64,000 nt of DNA from Halopelagius longus (lineage in GTDB: Archaea; Halobacteriota; Halobacteria; Halobacteriales; Haloferacaceae): positions 620,001-684,000 of the forward strand of contig NZ_FNKQ01000001.1 of NCBI RefSeq assembly GCF_900100875.1. Direction: 5' to 3'. The translations under genes and the position numbers were made by a program. Positions 4,151 to 12,540 of the stretch are shown one piece after another. The stretch's first letter is position 1. Every line of letters starts with the position of its first letter. The notes under the pieces were generated by a model, which ran no database searches, was not told the DNA's origin, and saw only the letters and a list, made by a program, of their open reading frames with translations.

Positions 4151-5014
4151 ATGTCCCGCATCGTCTGCGCCGGTCACGTGAACTGGGACGTGCTGTTTCG
4201 CGTCGATACCCTCCCCGAACCCGACGGCGAGGCGTCCGTCGAGTCCCGGGCGGCGTCGGGCGGCGGAAGCGCCTCCAACGTCGCCCGCGGACTCGTCGAA
4301 CTCGACGAGGAGGCGTCGCTTCTGGGGAGCGTCGGCGACGACGACCACGGCCGGACCGCCCGCGAGGAACTCGCTTCCGCGGGCGTCGACTGCGAGCACG
4401 TCGTCACCGTTCCGGACGGCGAGACGGCGACGAAGTACATCGTCGTCGAACCGAGCGGCGAGGTGATGGTTCTCGGCTGTGCCGGCGCGAACGAGGCGTT
4501 CGACGCCGACGACCTGCCACCGACGGCGCTGGAACGCGCGGACCACCTCCACCTCACGAGCCAACGACCGGAGACGGCGACCGAACTGGCGAGACGGGCG
4601 CAGGACGCCGGACTCACCGTGAGCTTCGACCCCGGACGGCGCATCGGCGAGCGAGCCTACTCGACGGCCATCTCGACCGTCGATTACCTGTTTCTCAACG
4701 ACCGCGAGGCCGCACTCGCGTTGGACGCCTTCGAGTTGGCCGACCAGACGCTCGTTCTCAAACACGGCCCCGACGGCGCGGAGGTGCGCCACGACGACGA
4801 CAGAACCGCCCACCCGGGCTACCCCATCGACGCGGTGGACACCACCGGCGCGGGCGACGCCTTCGCCGCGGGGTTCCTCTCGGCGTTGACAGACGGCGCG
4901 GACTTCGAACGCGCCCTCGCGGTGGCGAACGCCTGCGGCGCGATACTCTCCTCTTGCCCCGGTTCGCAGGGGAGCCTCTCCCGCGAGAAGGTCCGCTCGT
5001 TCCTCGGCGACTGA
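4151..5014 (+). CDS. PfkB-family (ribokinase-like) carbohydrate kinase
   Basis: The protein has 287 residues. It shows the N-terminal ribokinase signature ASGGGSASNVARGL (near residues 35-48) and the C-terminal signature DTTGAGDAF, in which Asp236 is the catalytic base. The family phosphorylates sugars or nucleosides with ATP. The substrate cannot be read from the sequence; ribose, 2-keto-3-deoxygluconate, fructose derivatives or nucleosides are all possible. The gene stands alone, with a TATA-like box about 28 bases upstream, and is followed 61 bases later by a membrane protein. Confidence 0.88.
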   Translation: MSRIVCAGHVNWDVLFRVDTLPEPDGEASVESRAASGGGSASNVARGLVELDEEASLLGSVGDDDHGRTAREELASAGVDCEHVVTVPDGETATKYIVVEPSGEVMVLGCAGANEAFDADDLPPTALERADHLHLTSQRPETATELARRAQDAGLTVSFDPGRRIGERAYSTAISTVDYLFLNDREAALALDAFELADQTLVLKHGPDGAEVRHDDDRTAHPGYPIDAVDTTGAGDAFAAGFLSALTDGADFERALAVANACGAILSSCPGSQGSLSREKVRSFLGD

Positions 5015-5075
5015 GGGCGAAAGCGGCCGGAACGGAACCGTGCCCTTATCTGCCGCCGTCGCGTCGTTCTGACGA

Positions 5076-5588
5076 ATGCAGCCCGTCGCCCTCGCCGTCG
5101 TCGGCCTGTTCGACCCCGGCGAGGCACCGCTCTTCGTCGCTCTGTGTGCGCTCGCGGGCCTCGTGGCGTCGTTCGCCATGGACGTCGCGATGGTCCAACA
5201 GGAGGAGGGGTTCACCCCCGCGTACGTCGCCGCCGCCGTCCTCCTGCGCGTCTCGCCGGAGGACGTGGGATTCCTCGGCGCGAACGTCGTCCACCACGCG
5301 GTCGGCGTTCTGGCCGGGGCGCTGTACGCGCTTCTCTATCTGGTGTTGGCGCTCTTGCTCCCCGTGGGACCGGTCGTGGGCCGCGTCGGCGTCGTCCCGC
5401 ACGTCGTCGCCGCCGTCGTCGTCGTCCTGTTCATCTACTCGTTCTTCGCGCACGTCGTCCTCCCGCGCGCCGGGCGGTCGATATACGAGGAGCGCTCGAC
5501 GGCCGTCTGCGGCCAGTGGCTCCGGTCGTCGCTCGTCTTCGGCGCGGGGTTCGTCCTCGTCGCGCCGTTTCTGACGGCCGTGGTCTGA
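5076..5588 (+). CDS. Multi-pass membrane protein, unknown function
   Basis: The 170-residue protein has about five hydrophobic segments separated by short loops. A conspicuous intramembrane stretch reads FAMDVAMVQQEEGFTP, and a HH pair follows in GANVVHHAVG. I do not recognise the family. A CTTATCT element about 29 bases before the ATG may be its TATA box. The gene is followed by a long non-coding stretch. Confidence 0.65.
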   Translation: MQPVALAVVGLFDPGEAPLFVALCALAGLVASFAMDVAMVQQEEGFTPAYVAAAVLLRVSPEDVGFLGANVVHHAVGVLAGALYALLYLVLALLLPVGPVVGRVGVVPHVVAAVVVVLFIYSFFAHVVLPRAGRSIYEERSTAVCGQWLRSSLVFGAGFVLVAPFLTAVV

Positions 5589-6198
5589 ACGCTGCGGTCC
5601 GAATGTGATGGTCCGAACCGACACGGTCCGAACTCTCGGTTCGAACCGCCGAGCGTCACGAACGAGGGGCCGGAGAAGGGGGGAATTTCGGGGGAGTTGC
5701 GGCACGCGACCGAGGCCGCAACACGGAGCGTCCATGTTCGAGAGGGGGACGGGTGTGCCGTCGCGCCCATCCGCGGAACGCGGCCCGGACCACAGAGACG
5801 GGAAGGGGACGTGGGGGTGGGGGATGGGTCGGGGGAAGACCCGTTGCCGACCGCAGTCCGAGGCGCACTCGCCGCACCGACGGAAACCGCCGCACCGTTC
5901 TGCGGAGCGACGAGGGGTGAAACGAGGGGGGCGTTCCACCGCCGACTCCATCGTCCGGCGGCCGCGGACAGTGCCCGACGGCCACGTACACCTCCGGGGG
6001 GAACCCAGTTAGTTACCTGCAACGTACGAACCGGTAATCGCTCCCGACCACACGTTAGACTCGGTTAAACTCCGCCTAACGTACCAGTCTCGCCGGTCGA
6101 GCGTGCACCGCGCCGACAACCCGGCCGCCGTCCCCCGAAACTGCGCCCGCGAGTCTCGTACCGCGGCGCTTTTGACGCAGACACGAGACGACGCCAGT
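5589..6198. other. Intergenic region with short repeats and one inverted repeat
   Basis: I find no convincing gene in these 610 bases. Open frames exist on both strands but have no recognisable protein character. The left part (5594-5650) holds three copies of GGTCCGAA and one GGTTCGAA. Near the right end ACGTTAG (6052-6058) is repeated inverted as CTAACGT (6076-6082), with GGTTAAAC between them. This lies about 120 bases before the phosphorylase gene and could be an operator. A TTTTGAC element near 6171 is a candidate TATA box for that gene. Confidence 0.5.
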
Positions 6199-6927
6199 AT
6201 GGCAAAACAGCCCCATCTGCTCGTGTCGGAGGGAGACGTAAACGACATCGCACTCGTCCCGGGCGACCCGGGGCGTGTGGACCGAATCGCCGCCCAGTGT
6301 GAGGACGTGGAGGAAGTCTCCTCGAACCGCGAGTACAAGGTAGTGAACGCGACGTACGAGGGCATCCCGCTCACCATCTGTTCGACGGGTATCGGCTGTC
6401 CGTCCGCGGCAATCGCCGTCGAGGAACTGTCGCGCGTCGGCGTCGACACCGTGATTCGCGTCGGCACCATCGGCGCGCTTCAGACGGGCATCGAAGTCGG
6501 CGACATGATTGTGGCGACGGGCGCGGCGAAGGAGGAGGGCACCTCCAAGCGCTACGAGTCCGCCGTCTACCCGGCCGTGCCGGACTACGAGGTTCTCACG
6601 TCTCTCGTCGAGTCCGCCGAGGCGAACGACGAGGACGTCCACGTCGGCCCCATCGTCTCCGACGACGCGTTCTACAACGAGTCCGAGGAGTTCGTCGAGG
6701 ACTGGGAGGACGCGAACCTGCTCGCAGTCGAGATGGAGGCGGCGACGGTGTTCGCCCTCGCGCGCCGCAAGGGCATGCGCGCCGGGGCCATCTGCACGGT
6801 GGACGGTAACCTCGTCGAGGGGACGCAGAAGGGTGCGGACTCCGACGAGGAACTGCCCGAGAAGGCGAAGAACAACGTCGAACGGGCCATCTCGCTCACG
6901 CTCGACGCGGTGACGACGCTCGCGTAG
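6199..6927 (+). CDS. udp: Nucleoside (uridine-type) phosphorylase
   Basis: The 242-residue protein belongs to the PNP/UDP phosphorylase family, which cleaves nucleosides with phosphate to a base and (deoxy)ribose 1-phosphate. Typical motifs are the phosphate-site ALVPGDPGRV near the N-terminus, the STGIGCPSAAIAVEEL segment, the IRVGTIGALQ segment and EMEAATVFALA. The extended frame from 6103 is rejected because MAKQPHLLVSEGDVNDI is a natural start. The stop codon TAG is directly followed by the ATG of the next gene, so the two must be co-transcribed. Uridine is the likeliest substrate from overall resemblance; other pyrimidine or purine nucleosides are not excluded. Confidence 0.85.
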   Translation: MAKQPHLLVSEGDVNDIALVPGDPGRVDRIAAQCEDVEEVSSNREYKVVNATYEGIPLTICSTGIGCPSAAIAVEELSRVGVDTVIRVGTIGALQTGIEVGDMIVATGAAKEEGTSKRYESAVYPAVPDYEVLTSLVESAEANDEDVHVGPIVSDDAFYNESEEFVEDWEDANLLAVEMEAATVFALARRKGMRAGAICTVDGNLVEGTQKGADSDEELPEKAKNNVERAISLTLDAVTTLA

Positions 6928-8388
6928 ATGGGCCGACTCCGGCACCTCCTCTCGCGGTTGTCGCTCCTCGTCGGGCGACTGCGGCGGTTCGAGAGACGAG
7001 AGGCGTCGGAGTTCCGGCGGTGGCTACAGAACACGAACAACCTGCTTCACCTCATCGTCGTCCTCGTCGTCCCCCTCCTCATCGCGTTCGTCACCTACCT
7101 CTCGAACGTCGTCCCGCGGTTCTACTACCTCCTGTTTCCGCCCCTCGCTTCGGGGACGTACACCCTGTTTTCGGACCCCGAGGGCCGGTACGCGGACCCG
7201 AAGAAGTTCGTCGCCGGCCTCACCGCGGGGGCGCTCTGCGGTCTGGCCGCCTTCGAGGTGGGGCAACTGCTCTACGGGCCGACGAACGGGACGCTCGTCC
7301 ACCCCGAGAGCGCCGCTCTCGCCGTGTTGTTCACCGGCGTCGTGACGTGGGCCGCCGACGTGGAGGTGCCGTCGGCGTTCTCGACGGCGCTTCTCACCCT
7401 CGTCGCGAGGGAGGTAGACCCCGCGGAGTACGTGGTGAGCATCTTCCTGTCTGCGTCCATCGTCGCCCTCGTCTTCGTCGTCTGGCGGTCGCGGTTCTAC
7501 GAGAGACGCGCCCGGTACCTCTACGAGACGGTCCGCGGCGACGACCACGTGTTGGTGCCGATGCGGGGCGAGACGGCCCGAGCGACGGCGATGTTCGGCG
7601 CGCGCCTCGCCGCCGCCCACGAGGCCGGAAAGGTCGTCCTCCTCGATATCGTGCCGCCGGAACGCGTCGCCGAGGGGGGCGGTTCGGCCGAGGCGGACGG
7701 CGGGGAGGGAGAGGAGTTAGACGCCGCCGGACCGACGGCCGAGGAGGACCTCCGGTCGCGGGAGGCCGACGAGGCGATAGAGCGACTGGAGTCGTGCGCC
7801 TCCGAGATACGGACGCGCGTCGGCGTCCCCTGCGAAGTCGTGGTGGCGGCCGGCGAGCCGATTCCGACGACGCTCGAAACCGCCGAGAACGCCAACTGCG
7901 ACCTCGTGGTGACGCCGTACGAGGAAGAGCGCGGGGTGCTCTCGAACTACGTCCGCGGCGTCTTCCGCGGCCCGTTGGACACCGTCGCGTTCCGCTCTAC
8001 GACCGAGACGCGGCGGTGGCGGCGCATCCTCGTCCTCGTCGCGCGGCCGGGCGATACGGCCCACGCGATGATAGACTTCGCGACGAGGCTCGCGCGCCGG
8101 ACCGGCATCGTCAGCGTCACGACCTGCATCTCGAACGAGGTGGAGCGTCGCGCCGCGGAGAGTCGCCTCGCGAACGTCGTCGAGACGGTGGAGGGACCGA
8201 TCGAGACGCGGGTGTCGCGGTCGGACGTGTCGTCGTTCGTCCGCGCAAACGCCTCCGGGTACGACCTGTTGGTCATCGGGTCGAGTCACGAACGGTCGGC
8301 GGCGTCGCGGTTCGTCTCGCCGCCCACCTTCCGGCGCATCCACGAAGCCGACTGCGACGTGGCCGTGTTCAACCGCGGCAACCCGTGA
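6928..8388 (+). CDS. HPP-type membrane protein fused to two UspA-like domains
   Basis: This protein has 486 residues. Residues of about 36-190 are a membrane block with the PPLASGTYTLFSDPEG stretch typical of HPP-family proteins. Residues of about 198-340 and 345-486 are two universal-stress-protein-like domains, the second ending in VIGSSHERSAASRF, a degenerate form of the ATP-binding G-x(2)-G motif. A charged linker rich in Glu, Asp and Gly (about residues 247-275) lies inside the first. HPP proteins have been linked to nitrite transport in chloroplasts and cyanobacteria, but the ligand here is unknown. The gene abuts the phosphorylase stop codon with no gap. Confidence 0.75.
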   Translation: MGRLRHLLSRLSLLVGRLRRFERREASEFRRWLQNTNNLLHLIVVLVVPLLIAFVTYLSNVVPRFYYLLFPPLASGTYTLFSDPEGRYADPKKFVAGLTAGALCGLAAFEVGQLLYGPTNGTLVHPESAALAVLFTGVVTWAADVEVPSAFSTALLTLVAREVDPAEYVVSIFLSASIVALVFVVWRSRFYERRARYLYETVRGDDHVLVPMRGETARATAMFGARLAAAHEAGKVVLLDIVPPERVAEGGGSAEADGGEGEELDAAGPTAEEDLRSREADEAIERLESCASEIRTRVGVPCEVVVAAGEPIPTTLETAENANCDLVVTPYEEERGVLSNYVRGVFRGPLDTVAFRSTTETRRWRRILVLVARPGDTAHAMIDFATRLARRTGIVSVTTCISNEVERRAAESRLANVVETVEGPIETRVSRSDVSSFVRANASGYDLLVIGSSHERSAASRFVSPPTFRRIHEADCDVAVFNRGNP

Positions 8389-8409
8389 GACCGGACCGCT
8401 CGCCCGCAG

Positions 8410-9621
8410 TCACTCCGAATTCGACCCGCCGTCGGCGGCGTCCGCGGAGGCGTCGCCGCCCAGCAGGCGCCGTTCGAGTTCCTCGACGTTCTCGCCGCCG
8501 AGTGCGGACTCCGCGAGGAAGTGCGCCCCGAGCGATATCGGGCTGATGACGGTGTCCGCGCCGGCGCGCTTCAGTTTGTCCGCGTTCTCGCGTTGGGTCA
8601 CCGCCGCGACGATGGTCACGTCGGGGTTGAGTTCCCGCGCCGTCAGGATGGCGAGGGCGTCCTCGGCGTCGTTGTTCGTCGCCGTGACGACGGCCGCCGC
8701 CGACTCGATCCGCGCTGTCCGTTGGGTCTGCTCGTCGCTCGGGTCGCCCGTGTGGGCGGTGTAGCCCCGTTCGGAGAGGCGGCGCGCGCGTTCCTCGTTC
8801 GGCGTCACGACGACGACGGTGCGCTGGCCGGAGAGTTCTTCGAGTATCGGTTCCGTCAGGTCCCCGTGGCCGAGGACGAGGACGTGGTTTTCGAGGAGTT
8901 CGAGCTGTTGTTCGGTCATGCGTCCGAGTGCTTTCGACAGTCGCGTTTCGATGAGCGGAGAGAGGACGACGCCCGCCACCGCCGCGAACGACGAGACGGT
9001 GAGCACGAGCATCGACAGCGTGAACAGTTCGCCGACGGCCGTACTGGGCGTGATGTCGCCGTAGCCGACGGTGCTGCCCGTGACGAGCGAGAAGTAGAAC
9101 GCGTCCAGCAGGTTGTTGACGCCGTTGAAGTGGTCCTCCCGGAGGGTGAACGTCCCGATGGTGCCGTACGCCTGCGACCCGGCGAGGGCGCTCAGCGCCG
9201 CGACTTGCGTCGTCGTCACGTCCAAATCGCGGTCGAACGACTTCCGGTTGAGGAGCACGAGGACGAACGTGACGACGGAGAGCGTCAACAGCGGAATCGA
9301 GCGGTTGGTGGACTGCAACACCGACTGCGCCACCGTTATCGGGACGAGTGCGAGGACGGCGTACAGCGCAGCGCGCAGTCCGCGGCGGAGGCCGAACGCG
9401 CTCAAGAGGAGCAGAAACCCGGTGATGGTCCCGGTGAACGCCGTGATCTGGCGGACGACGCCGGGGACGGTGACGCCGAAGACGACGACGCTGCCGGCGA
9501 ACCCCGCGCCGATGTTGGCGAGGCCGGTGACGACGGCCAGAATCCCGACGAGCAACGTCGAGAGAAACGACGCGCGGGTACCGACCCACTGCGCGTACTT
9601 GCCCGCCCATTCGGGTGCCAT
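8410..9621 (-). CDS. Potassium channel with cytoplasmic RCK domain
   Basis: The 403-residue protein has an N-terminal membrane block (about residues 20-222) with the K+ selectivity filter TVGYGD at 184-189, followed by an RCK (TrkA-N type) domain starting HVLVLGHGDLTEP near residue 246. The nucleotide loop reads G-H-G-D-L-T, lacking the third glycine of the canonical GxGxxG, so NAD binding is uncertain. The part before the pore is longer than in a two-helix channel. The tail is acidic. The gene is divergent from the pair of RCK_C membrane proteins, with 102 bases between starts, which suggests a shared role in K+ homeostasis. Confidence 0.85.
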   Translation of the reverse strand: MAPEWAGKYAQWVGTRASFLSTLLVGILAVVTGLANIGAGFAGSVVVFGVTVPGVVRQITAFTGTITGFLLLLSAFGLRRGLRAALYAVLALVPITVAQSVLQSTNRSIPLLTLSVVTFVLVLLNRKSFDRDLDVTTTQVAALSALAGSQAYGTIGTFTLREDHFNGVNNLLDAFYFSLVTGSTVGYGDITPSTAVGELFTLSMLVLTVSSFAAVAGVVLSPLIETRLSKALGRMTEQQLELLENHVLVLGHGDLTEPILEELSGQRTVVVVTPNEERARRLSERGYTAHTGDPSDEQTQRTARIESAAAVVTATNNDAEDALAILTARELNPDVTIVAAVTQRENADKLKRAGADTVISPISLGAHFLAESALGGENVEELERRLLGGDASADAADGGSNSE

Positions 9622-9723
9622 GTCCCTTCGTGACCGCCCCCCGCTATAAAGGCCCTCGGACCGCGGCGTCCGGCGCGCCGCGGATACGGAAACAGTAATC
9701 AGTTCGGGGAATTCGTACGTCGT

Positions 9724-10974
9724 ATGGCGTCACTCCCCATCGAACTGCTCTACGGACTCTATCTCGGGGTGCTCACGGGGTTCGTCCCGGCCCTCATCGC
9801 GTGGGCGCTTGGGTTCGGTTTCAAGTACTTCACGGGCATCACCATCCCCGGTCTGGCCGTCGTGGGTCTCGGCGTCGCCATCGCCGGCCTCAACGGCGGC
9901 CTGTTGGCCCTCGCGGACCCCTCTCTCACCGCCTCCGAGAACCAAGTCCGACTCACCGTCGCCCTCCTCGTCGTGTTGATGGCGACGCTGTACGCGCACG
10001 CGCAGGGAGACAAGATGGGAGCGAACCTGCCGCGCAGGCTCTCCTTCGGGCGGTTCAGCGCGCGAACGCTCTCGGCGGACGTCGTGGAGTTGGTCGGGAA
10101 CCACGGACAGGTCCGCGTCACCGTCGCCGGCGACGTCTCCGACGTGGAGGGGTACCCACCGCTCTCGCCGGAACTCCGAGAGGAGATTTCGACCGGCGAG
10201 TGGACGTTCCCCGCCGACCTCCCCCTCGACGAACTGGAGACGCGCTTTGCGGACCGCCTCCGAACGGAGTTCGACCTCGCGGACGTGTCCGTGGCGCTCG
10301 ACGAACGGGCGCGGGCGACGGTCGCCGCCGCGCCGCCGATGAGCGGGCTCTCGAAGCGACTCGCCACCGGAAAGCGGGCGGTGTCGGTGACCGCACTCGT
10401 CCCGACGGGCGTCGGCCGGGGCGACGAGGTGACGGTGGTCGCCGACGGCGACGAGTTCGACGCGACGGTGCTCGGCGTCGTGGACGGCGAAGCGAAGAAG
10501 TCCGACCCGAAATCGAGCGACGACGCGGCCCTCACTGACGGCGGAAGCGACGGTGACTCCGACGCCGACGCCGAGGCCCCCGCGCCGGAGGCGGTTCCGA
10601 CCGCCGCGGGCGGCGAGTGCCGCGCGACGCTGGCGGTGGACCGGCGGGCCGCCACGCGCCTCGTCTCCGCCGACGTGGACCGGTTCGTCGTTCGCTCCCG
10701 CGGCGTCCGCCGGGAGTTCGAACTCGTCAACCTGCTCCGCCGCGCGGGCAAGCGCTTCCGCCGACTCACCGTGCGCGAGGGCGGGGCGTTGGACGGATCG
10801 ACGCTCGGGGAGGCGACCGTCCGCGACCAGTTCTCCGTGGCGGTACTCGCCGTCAGAAGCGACGGGAGGTGGTCGTTGGCCCCCCGCGGCGAGCACCGAA
10901 TCGAGGCGGGCGACGACCTGATAGCCGTCGGAAGCGCCACCGACCTCGACGCGTTCGCGGAGGTGGTCGCGTGA
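9724..10974 (+). CDS. Membrane protein with C-terminal RCK_C (TrkA-C) domain, first of a pair
   Basis: This 416-residue protein has about three membrane helices in its first 100 residues, a soluble middle region, an acidic linker (about residues 258-292) and a C-terminal RCK_C-like domain (about residues 335-416; note LRRAGKRFRRLTVREG and GDDLIAVGSATDLDAFAEV). It has no pore motif and no Rossmann fold, so it is not a channel itself. Its middle and C-terminal parts resemble the next protein, suggesting a tandem duplication. The last bases GTGA overlap the next start. A regulatory or auxiliary subunit for K+ transport is an inference from the domain and from the divergent channel gene. Confidence 0.7.
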   Translation: MASLPIELLYGLYLGVLTGFVPALIAWALGFGFKYFTGITIPGLAVVGLGVAIAGLNGGLLALADPSLTASENQVRLTVALLVVLMATLYAHAQGDKMGANLPRRLSFGRFSARTLSADVVELVGNHGQVRVTVAGDVSDVEGYPPLSPELREEISTGEWTFPADLPLDELETRFADRLRTEFDLADVSVALDERARATVAAAPPMSGLSKRLATGKRAVSVTALVPTGVGRGDEVTVVADGDEFDATVLGVVDGEAKKSDPKSSDDAALTDGGSDGDSDADAEAPAPEAVPTAAGGECRATLAVDRRAATRLVSADVDRFVVRSRGVRREFELVNLLRRAGKRFRRLTVREGGALDGSTLGEATVRDQFSVAVLAVRSDGRWSLAPRGEHRIEAGDDLIAVGSATDLDAFAEVVA

Positions 10975-12182
10975 GCGTCCTCTCGCGACTCGGCCTCGAA
11001 GACTTCGGCATCGACGCGGAACTGGGACTCCTCGTCGGCGAGGTACTCGGCCTCGGGTTGCTCGCCATGGTCGCCGCCGCCGCGGTAGCGGTTGTCTACC
11101 GCTGGTACACCAAAGAGCGCATCCCCGCGTGGATAACCGCGATGTTCGCGGGGTCCGCCGTCGCCGTCCCGCGCCAAGCGGTCGGCCTGTTCAGGGCCGC
11201 GACGGACCCGGCGGCGTCCGCGGCCGCGGTGTTCGAACCGACGACGATGCTGATGAACGTGGCCGCACTCGGTCTGGCCGTCCTCGTCGCCCCGACGGGA
11301 CTCGCGATAGGCGACCGCATCGCCACCGACGTGTTCGCCGTCGCCGGCGCGCGCGAAATCGACGCGGAGGTGGGCCGACTCGTCCGCACGGTCGGTCGCG
11401 TCCGCGGCATCCGACTCCCCGACTCGGCCGACGACATCGGCGACATCGACGGCTACGAACCCGTCACCGAGGACCGCAAGGAGGCGATGGCGGGCAAGAC
11501 GCTGCTGTTCCCCCGCCGCCTCCGCGACGGCGAACTGGTCGAACGGGTCACGGAGCGTCTGAAGACGGACTACGGCGTCGGACACGTGGACGTGGAGTTG
11601 GCGAAGGACGGCGCAGTCACCTACCTCGCCGTCGGCCGCCGCGCCGCGGGCATCGGGCCGACGCTCGCGCCGGGGACGGCGGCGGTCGCGGTCCGCGCGG
11701 ACCCCGGCGCGGGGGCGAGTGCGGGCGACGCCGTCCAACTGTGGCGCGTCGGCCCCGGGGGGGAACCAGAACGCGCGGCGACGGCGGAACTCCGCGTCGC
11801 CGCGGGCGACGTGGCCACCGTCGTCTTAGACGAGGACGAGGCCGCCGAGTTGGACCCCGAGGAGTCGTACCGCATCATCACGCTCCCGAACGAACCCGGC
11901 GCGGAACACGAGTTCGGGTCGCTCCTCCGCGCCGCCGACGAGACGATGGAGTCCGTCACCGTCGAGGCGGGGAGCGAACTCGACGGACTGACGCTCAGAG
12001 AGACCGACGCCACCGTCGTCGCCGTCAAACCCGCCGACGGAACCGTCGAGGCGATTCCGTCGCGCTCTCGGGAACTCGGACCGGGCGACGTGGTCTACGT
12101 CGTCGCCCGACCGGAGACGATTCGGCGCGTCTCCCGCCGGGCCGCGGCGGCGGAGGCGGACGCCCCCGCGGCGGACGACTGA
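10971..12182 (+). CDS. Membrane protein with C-terminal RCK_C (TrkA-C) domain, second of a pair
   Basis: The protein has 403 residues from the GTG at 10971, whose GTGA overlaps the stop of the previous gene, implying coupled translation. The frame is open further upstream, but that would run deep into the previous gene. The N-terminal block holds about three helices (SVLSRLGLEDFGID precedes the first). The soluble part resembles its neighbour, for instance GHVDVELAKDGAVTYLAVG here against ADVSVALDERARATVAAAP there. The C-terminus has an RCK_C-like domain (SVTVEAGSELDGLTLRETDA, GDVVYVVARPETIRRV). The two products may form a hetero-oligomer. Confidence 0.7.
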   Translation: MSVLSRLGLEDFGIDAELGLLVGEVLGLGLLAMVAAAAVAVVYRWYTKERIPAWITAMFAGSAVAVPRQAVGLFRAATDPAASAAAVFEPTTMLMNVAALGLAVLVAPTGLAIGDRIATDVFAVAGAREIDAEVGRLVRTVGRVRGIRLPDSADDIGDIDGYEPVTEDRKEAMAGKTLLFPRRLRDGELVERVTERLKTDYGVGHVDVELAKDGAVTYLAVGRRAAGIGPTLAPGTAAVAVRADPGAGASAGDAVQLWRVGPGGEPERAATAELRVAAGDVATVVLDEDEAAELDPEESYRIITLPNEPGAEHEFGSLLRAADETMESVTVEAGSELDGLTLRETDATVVAVKPADGTVEAIPSRSRELGPGDVVYVVARPETIRRVSRRAAAAEADAPAADD

Positions 12183-12267: not shown

Positions 12268-12540
12268 ATGACTACGGTGCGCTGGAAGATGTTCGCGGAC
12301 CTCGCGGAGGCGGCGGGCGGCCGAACGACGGACGTTCGCGTCTCCTCGGACGCCACGGTGCGCGACGCCCTCGACGCACTCCTCGAAGACAGAGAGGCCC
12401 TCGGCGACCGAGTTCTCGACGAGGACGGGGACCTAAAAGAGCACGTGAACCTCCTGCGGAACGGGAGCGCCGCGGAGTTCTCCGAACCGGTCGCCGACGG
12501 CGACGAGTTGGCGCTGTTCCCGCCGGTCAGCGGCGGGTGA
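12268..12540 (+). CDS. samp1: Ubiquitin-like small archaeal modifier protein SAMP1 (MoaD family)
   Basis: The 90-residue beta-grasp protein has conserved landmarks of Haloferax SAMP1 (HVO_2619): VRWKMFADLAEAAGG at the start, HVNLLRNGSAAEF in the middle, and GDELALFPPVSGG at the end. The C-terminal di-glycine is the residue pair adenylated by the E1-like enzyme UbaA and joined to lysines of target proteins. SAMP1 also serves as the MoaD-like sulfur carrier for molybdopterin. A TTTT element lies about 27 bases before the ATG. The gene ends inside the 3' end of the convergent aldehyde dehydrogenase gene (14-base overlap). Confidence 0.92.
   Translation: MTTVRWKMFADLAEAAGGRTTDVRVSSDATVRDALDALLEDREALGDRVLDEDGDLKEHVNLLRNGSAAEFSEPVADGDELALFPPVSGG

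Follow-up and report, generated by a model that had tools for sequence, protein, structure and literature searches.

A co-inherited pair of haloarchaeal membrane proteins with C-terminal RCK_C domains, encoded beside a divergent K+ channel gene

Haloarchaea keep molar K+ inside the cell and must control it, and in other systems K+ transport is controlled through RCK_C domains that sense cyclic di-AMP (c-di-AMP), nucleotides or Ca2+; to our knowledge, the K+ regulators of haloarchaea have been little studied. For HVO_2617 of Haloferax volcanii, a protein of 403 amino acids (aa) assigned to composite family 1329, a passage of a 2018 report gives an unknown three-pass N-terminus and a TrkA C-terminus, and suggests involvement in K+ uptake (PMC5992828). 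A two-subunit system is described in Thermotoga maritima, where part of the report on TM1088A and TM1088B presents them as a split TrkA ring encoded by adjacent genes (PMC4380455). Here we describe two overlapping genes, A and B, in a 64,000-nt stretch of the Halopelagius longus genome (the window; contig NZ_FNKQ01000001.1, positions 620,001–684,000 of the forward strand; coordinates are window positions), which encode membrane proteins that both end in an RCK_C domain and lie beside a divergent K+ channel gene, K. The pair is real, conserved and functionally obscure; A and B probably act together, and the pair is likely to have a K+ role.

Both proteins exceed the curated Pfam cut-off of TrkA_C (PF02080; 27 bits), A with 43.6 bits (E 2.7e-11, residues 347–414) and B with 32.1 bits (E 1.1e-7, residues 327–390), and the domain recurs in 50/50 relatives of A, taken from the type 1 and type 2 loci defined below, and in 43/46 relatives of B, scanned at E up to 0.1, which rules out a chance match. 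The RCK_C assignment of an earlier reading of the window from its letters alone (the sequence-only reading) thus holds in profile searches, and its description of about three helices in each protein, with no pore and no Rossmann domain, stands as well. In A, hydrophobic peaks near residues 8–30, 38–62 and 75–95 agree with model helices at 6–37, 43–69 (broken) and 74–101; in B, the model helices are 16–47, 53–78 and 90–127, although the second lies below the hydropathy threshold of 1.6 in the window copy. Pfam and NCBIfam searches up to E 1 gave no TrkA_N, pore or transporter family for either protein, TrkA_N is also missing from the families found at E up to 0.1 in the relatives of A (50) and of B (46), and the two translations contain neither a TVGYG-type filter motif nor an Ion_trans family up to E 1. 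With no pore family and no such filter, A or B is not a K+ channel of known type; nor is either a TrkA/KtrA-type gating-ring subunit, since the TrkA_N Rossmann domain is missing and three membrane helices are predicted in place of a soluble protein. MscS gave no Pfam match in A or B, the fold-search lists being filled by the RCK_C domain.

AlphaFold models built on alignments of the 50 A and 46 B sequences have good local confidence (predicted local distance difference test score, pLDDT, 82.6 for A and 86.8 for B) but a predicted template modelling score (pTM) of only 0.41 and 0.42, so that confidence extends to the single domains but not to how they are arranged. Both models predict the same order, i.e., membrane helices, an alpha/beta domain, a small barrel and RCK_C, with the disordered acidic linker of A placed within the barrel region; by analogy with where RCK_C domains act, everything after the third helix would be cytosolic. 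The modeled RCK_C of A lies nearest to KhtT (PDB code 7ahm_A; Z 14.7, 1.9 Å, 86 residues) and BusR (7b5u_B; Z 13.7, 1.5 Å, 74 residues), and that of B to MthK (2aej_A; Z 11.4, 2.8 Å, 86 residues). Fold searches with the whole models returned almost only RCK_C chains and barely probed the other domains; the barrel of B has a weak match to RcpC (9gzr_A; Z 7.6, 2.7 Å, 81 residues), the B profile matches SMUBP-2 (E 4.2e-6), and at E up to 0.1 the RcpC profile is found in 16/50 A and SMUBP-2 domain 1B in 19/46 B. Conservation, expressed as mean Jensen–Shannon (JS) divergence, is highest in A over residues 1–105 (0.653), compared with 0.568 in RCK_C and 0.321 in the acidic linker; in B it is lowest in the membrane region (0.498, with 6% of columns at 90% or more), and reaches 0.605 in the barrel and 0.615 in the alpha/beta domain. 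The membrane region is thus the most conserved part of A and the least conserved part of B, so the subunits are not equivalent and the constraint lies on the membrane part of A. Long acidic C-terminal tails occur on the B proteins of L024, L026, L030, L037, L050, L055 and L063 (505–656 aa).

A and B are homologous to each other (BLASTP, 25% identity, E 9e-13; profile–profile comparison, probability 99.9% over 344 columns). In a tree of 69 sequences (34 A and 35 B; L099_A was dropped beforehand, a B gene having been matched twice), one 100/100 branch parts all A from all B, with the three locus types described below on both sides. Judged from these sequences, every A goes back to one side, and every B to the other, of a single deep duplication, and the branch rules out recent or repeated duplication; the tandem-duplication origin that the sequence-only reading had proposed is borne out, for proteins that are now distant relatives.

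The pair is also inherited together. Sixty-three A loci were retrieved from named genomes via exact short A peptides, which biases the set toward near relatives, and their genes were delimited by script, taking the start codon nearest to the query's. All are haloarchaeal records except L029 (uncultured archaeon) and L054, a metagenome contig labeled Thermoplasmata; the pair of L054 groups with haloarchaeal pairs, and the contig is possibly misbinned. B adjoins A in 60/63 loci (exceptions L028, L044 and L061), and the exact −4 offset between the two genes is found in 37/63. In L028 (4924–10019) the whole pair is in tandem duplicate, A-B-A-B; L044 (5939–9776) has two A copies ahead of one B; and at L061 a type 2 pair has decayed, with an intact type 1 pair (L063) elsewhere in that genome. 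A was searched within the class only, in 292 evenly sampled genomes of 90% or higher completeness (E up to 1e-20; K at E up to 1e-50), and is present in 246, covering 68/76 genera, with K in 286; both are present in 246 genomes, K only in 40, neither in 6 and A only in none (Fisher p 1.1e-5, uncorrected for kinship). B was searched in a phylum sample of 392 genomes (E up to 1e-15) and is present in 76, all of them listed in the order of the window; no relatives of B were found among phages. Among the 91 genomes common to both searches, 75 have both genes, 15 neither, one B only and none A only, which rules out that A and B fail to co-occur. In the lone B-only genome (G072), which has no A, 61 codons of B survive as a relic, with K on one side and SAMP1 on the other (L077:3718–3900). 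K and SAMP1 are directly adjacent, with A and B missing, in L080, L081, L084 and L085; together with the relic in L077, this indicates that the pair was lost together, at least in L077. The two-subunit reading is thus well supported by one deep duplication, shared inheritance, the frequent four-base overlap, and joint duplication and loss.

In the window the overlap reads GTGA, and the adjacent pair stands 102 bases from the divergent channel gene with its RCK domain, at the coordinates that the sequence-only reading had given (Table 1). This layout recurs: in 109/116 genomes with A and K both among the matches listed (of the 246 with A), K is divergent within 1.5 kb of A, with a median of 120 bases between the matched parts, and in seven it is not; likewise, K divergently adjoins A in 53/60 loci with at least 1.5 kb upstream. 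The co-occurrence survey therefore finds A and B together and K beside A. No common operator was seen by eye in the K–A gap of 28 loci and the window, TATA-like stretches only. K itself has TrkA_N (2e-30), Ion_trans_2 (2.9e-13) and a TVGYGD filter, and both families recur in 34/34 relatives of K; TrkA_C is found in 0/34 at E up to 0.1. It does not qualify as a full MthK-like RCK channel, although pore and RCK_N are there, and, going by these matches, is better called an RCK_N-only, Kch-like channel. The K profile aligns with MthK residues 5–260 (pore and RCK_N) and that of A with residues 256–332, so that the module set of an RCK channel is spread over K, A and B; this is no more than suggestive.

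Table 1 Features of the A–B locus in the window
Feature	Position	Strand	Description and basis
TM_HPP + Usp membrane protein, neighbor of K	6928..8388	+	Pfam
K, Kch/MthK-like K+ channel	8410..9621	-	TVGYGD filter, RCK_N; Pfam and profile match
K RCK_N (TrkA_N), residues 247–361	8539..8883	-	Pfam
K pore domain (Ion_trans_2), residues 154–221	8959..9162	-	Pfam
K–A divergent intergenic region	9622..9723		102 bases; sequence, TATA-like stretch near each start
Gene A	9724..10974	+	416 aa open reading frame; predicted three-pass membrane protein, C-terminal RCK_C; TrkA_C 2.7e-11
A membrane region, residues 6–101	9739..10026	+	Model helices, hydropathy, conservation
A acidic linker, low confidence, residues 256–295	10489..10608	+	pLDDT <50 at 257–288; not conserved (mean JS 0.321)
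A RCK_C (TrkA_C), residues 347–414	10762..10965	+	Pfam; structural match to KhtT
Gene B	10971..12182	+	403 aa, GTG start; predicted three-pass membrane protein, C-terminal RCK_C
B membrane region, residues 16–127	11016..11351	+	Model helices; weakly conserved
B RCK_C, residues 327–390	11949..12140	+	Short deletion relative to A; Pfam, profile-alignment gap
SAMP1-type ubiquitin-like protein, downstream of B	12268..12540	+	NCBIfam SAMP1 2.4e-32

The setting of the pair is not the same everywhere, and three locus types can be told apart. Type 1 is that of the window, with the pair beside divergent K and SAMP1 downstream. Type 2 comprises eight loci: the L110 pair (4516–8770) has a Na_H_Exchanger antiporter and a relative of KhtT (E 8.8e-26) for neighbors, another pair, on a Natrinema plasmid, lies among cation:proton antiporters, two more pairs are on other plasmids, L045 adjoins an ABC transporter, and L043, L051 and L054 are on short contigs. 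The plasmid records annotate both genes as 'TrkA C-terminal domain-containing protein'. Type 3 comprises 12 loci (L093–L103 and L106), one with B only; in the loci examined by profile, the neighbors are DUF7125/MinD-like ATPases, HerA-like ATPases, DUF7310, DUF7311, DUF7382 and DUF7857, the exception being L096 with radical-SAM and MFS neighbors. The DUF7382 protein of these clusters has, read by eye, a pilin-like N-terminus, and in L099 (5863–7029) a B-type gene has no recognizable A ahead of it. A literature search for the DUF7310/DUF7311/DUF7125/DUF7857 cluster found nothing. TrkA_C is detected in 10/12 type 3 B, mostly below the cut-off. With three locus types, the K+ setting is one among several.

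SAMP1 follows B in 53/61 loci with 1.5 kb downstream and is probably not part of the module, and the TM_HPP + Usp gene lies beside K in 31/53 K-adjacent loci. Co-variation was measured in 27 loci for six neighboring genes, as partial distance correlations given the other four: A–B reaches 0.54, A–K 0.43, A–HPPUsp 0.28 and B–K 0.17, with A–SAMP at 0.08 and B–SAMP at 0.07, values to be read with the shortness of SAMP in mind. The K+ link is favored by the place of K beside A in most genomes, by the lack of any A without K among the 246, and by the A–K correlation relative to that of A–SAMP; the type 2 pair beside an antiporter and a KhtT relative, and the match of the A RCK_C to KhtT and BusR, point the same way.

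As to the ligand, the part of the report on Staphylococcus aureus KtrA/KtrC concerned with the site gives Asp167, Arg169 and Asn175 as contacts of c-di-AMP (PMC5508000). These align to residues 365, 367 and 373 of A, where position 367 is Arg in 48/50 sequences; in the same 50, Asp is not among the five commonest residues at 365, nor Asn at 373, and the B profile alignment is gapped opposite the 365–370 segment of A. According to the part of the BusR report that deals with binding, BusR holds c-di-AMP via a mostly hydrophobic pocket (PMC8517857), and because of this, A may by analogy still bind c-di-AMP with the KtrA residues missing. A single diadenylate cyclase is encoded in the genome (PF02457, 7.4e-20), a point in favor of the reading preferred below. 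In H. volcanii, c-di-AMP is reported, in the part of the article concerned, as essential under standard growth conditions and connected with osmoregulation; the main text of that article contains none of the terms RCK, TrkA and Kch (PMC6741144). The TM_HPP protein beside K bears Usp domains, and the Usp domain of KdpD is described, in part of another report, as binding c-di-AMP (PMC8214093).

From the observed domain content, homology, co-inheritance and conserved gene order we infer that A and B form two subunits of one haloarchaeal membrane complex, each with three membrane helices followed by an alpha/beta domain, a small beta barrel and RCK_C, all predicted to be cytoplasmic. The RCK_C of A, with a normal fold, and that of B, which would be without the segment lining the ligand pocket elsewhere, most likely associate with each other and sense a small ligand in the cytosol; a change in the ligand would be relayed through the barrel and the alpha/beta domain to the membrane helices, and at the window locus the complex would most likely tune K+ movement, via the divergent Kch-like channel or K+ flux generally. 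Taken whole, i.e., as a two-subunit ligand-sensing membrane complex that tunes K+ in the window-type locus, this reading is offered tentatively, with prospects a little short of even.

Several observations weigh against it. SAMP1 is as constant a neighbor as K (53/61 compared with 53/60), and five fully flanked loci keep SAMP1 beside the pair but not K. K is retained in 40/46 genomes without A, and is not less conserved there, which speaks against K depending on the pair: among Halorubrum-like genomes, with three cases lacking A, mean K identity is 0.819 between genomes with A, 0.802 between those with and without A, and 0.770 between those without, the corresponding values for the SAMP control being 0.801, 0.786 and 0.784. 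A strict dependence of K on A–B is thus not upheld. The A–K correlation may stem from shared lateral history, because NUP–HPPUsp reaches 0.68 in the same 27 loci. Two type 2 plasmid pairs have no K+ gene within the annotated stretch examined, and the type 3 pairs, in their HerA/MinD setting, show TrkA_C in 0/11 A, so that it is in types 1 and 2 that A has a recognizable RCK_C. Finally, a KtrA-type c-di-AMP site is not found in A, where two of the three contacts are missing and the Arg alone is kept. The sequence-only reading had proposed a two-subunit regulator or accessory for K+; its two-subunit part stands, whereas an accessory to K is not borne out, given how K persists without A, the constancy of SAMP1 and the pairs away from the channel, and a channel-specific role is weaker than that reading held.

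The same observations can be read in other ways. A–B may itself be a ligand-gated channel or transporter, in which the conserved, glycine-rich membrane region of A would conduct or transport an ion or solute and the RCK_C domains would gate this, K being a separate gene of the same physiology. This would explain why the membrane region of A is better conserved than its RCK_C, which a mere tether would not need, and it fits the predicted layout, three passes and then alpha/beta and barrel domains in the cytosol, and the life of the pair on plasmids and elsewhere without a K channel; however, the searches up to E 1 gave no pore or transporter family, the membrane region of B is poorly conserved, and the fold searches probed only the RCK_C part, and we consider this account rather unlikely. 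A general membrane signaling or scaffold module, placed beside K by old synteny with no functional link, would sit easily with the three contexts (channel; khtTU or plasmid; HerA/MinD/DUF7310/DUF7311 cluster), the constancy of SAMP1, the independence of K from the pair, and barrels that resemble RcpC and SMUBP-2 1B. It is nonetheless rather improbable, as RCK_C is on A in 50/50 of the type 1 and type 2 relatives scanned and in 0/11 of type 3, as if ion settings needed RCK_C, and as A–K distances correlate more than those of A–SAMP.

The complementary MthK coverage of K and A raises the further idea of a split gating ring, in which K gives the pore and RCK_N, and A and B the RCK_C lobes in trans, together an MthK-like channel; the two-subunit ring of TM1088A/B, as far as the part of its report cited above goes, is a precedent for such a split. 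Yet K persists without A–B, A–B pairs exist without K, and the PDB holds a fragment of an RCK_N-only K+ channel, 1id1, so that a missing RCK_C needs no partner; we take 1id1 to be E. coli Kch. This makes the split ring very improbable. Doubtful as well, if less so, is the broader notion that A–B represents a novel kind of RCK_C sensor, anchored in the membrane and built of two subunits: one portable ligand-sensing module that would complete an RCK_N-only K+ channel in trans and, at other loci, work with a K+/H+ antiporter and with a HerA/MinD apparatus in the membrane.

On the preferred reading, a two-subunit sensor that tunes K+, the pair is a concrete candidate receptor, present in most haloarchaeal genera sampled, inherited as a unit and equipped with a putative ligand-reading domain, and the candidate can be tested by gene deletion in a tractable organism, H. 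volcanii. Searches of the open-licence literature found neither the A–B pair nor its three settings; a search for the locus tags HVO_2615–2618 found only PMC5992828, searches on the RCK domain in haloarchaea, and on the TrkA-C domain together with potassium channel in Haloferax volcanii, found no paper, and among the Haloferax papers listed for potassium channel and TrkA none reports the pair in its title or the start of its abstract. The sequence-only reading had called the arrangement new, which holds for the pair and its settings within that literature but not for the architecture of A alone, outlined in the 2018 passage on family 1329.

Like HVO_2617 as outlined there, A is a haloarchaeal protein with three predicted membrane passes and a C-terminal TrkA domain, and the Haloferax A proteins (L006–L010 and L048) are also 403 aa long. 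Length and neighbors suggest that the window locus is orthologous to that of HVO_2617, which the order of HVO locus tags presumably places at this locus. The passage on family 1329 deals with a single gene and mentions neither a partner B nor the one duplication, the divergent channel or the two further locus types (PMC5992828). The likeness of the central barrel to RcpC of the Tad pilus and to SMUBP-2 domain 1B is weak or partial, and a common small barrel may explain it. KhtT, a subunit of the K+/H+ antiporter KhtTU, has an RCK_C like that of A; however, it is small and soluble, with a different domain at its N-terminus, whereas A and B lack that N domain and are predicted to have membrane helices. 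A is not KhtT: its profile match extends over RCK_C only, and in the window the pair adjoins K and SAMP1, not khtU. MthK carries all its modules in one chain, of which K matches the pore and RCK_N, and A and B the RCK_C; here RCK_C resides on separate membrane proteins with a putative link to K. TM1088A/B, on the part of the report cited, are soluble, in contrast to A and B, predicted membrane proteins that both bear RCK_C, and what the two systems have in common is the distribution of RCK parts over two adjacent genes.

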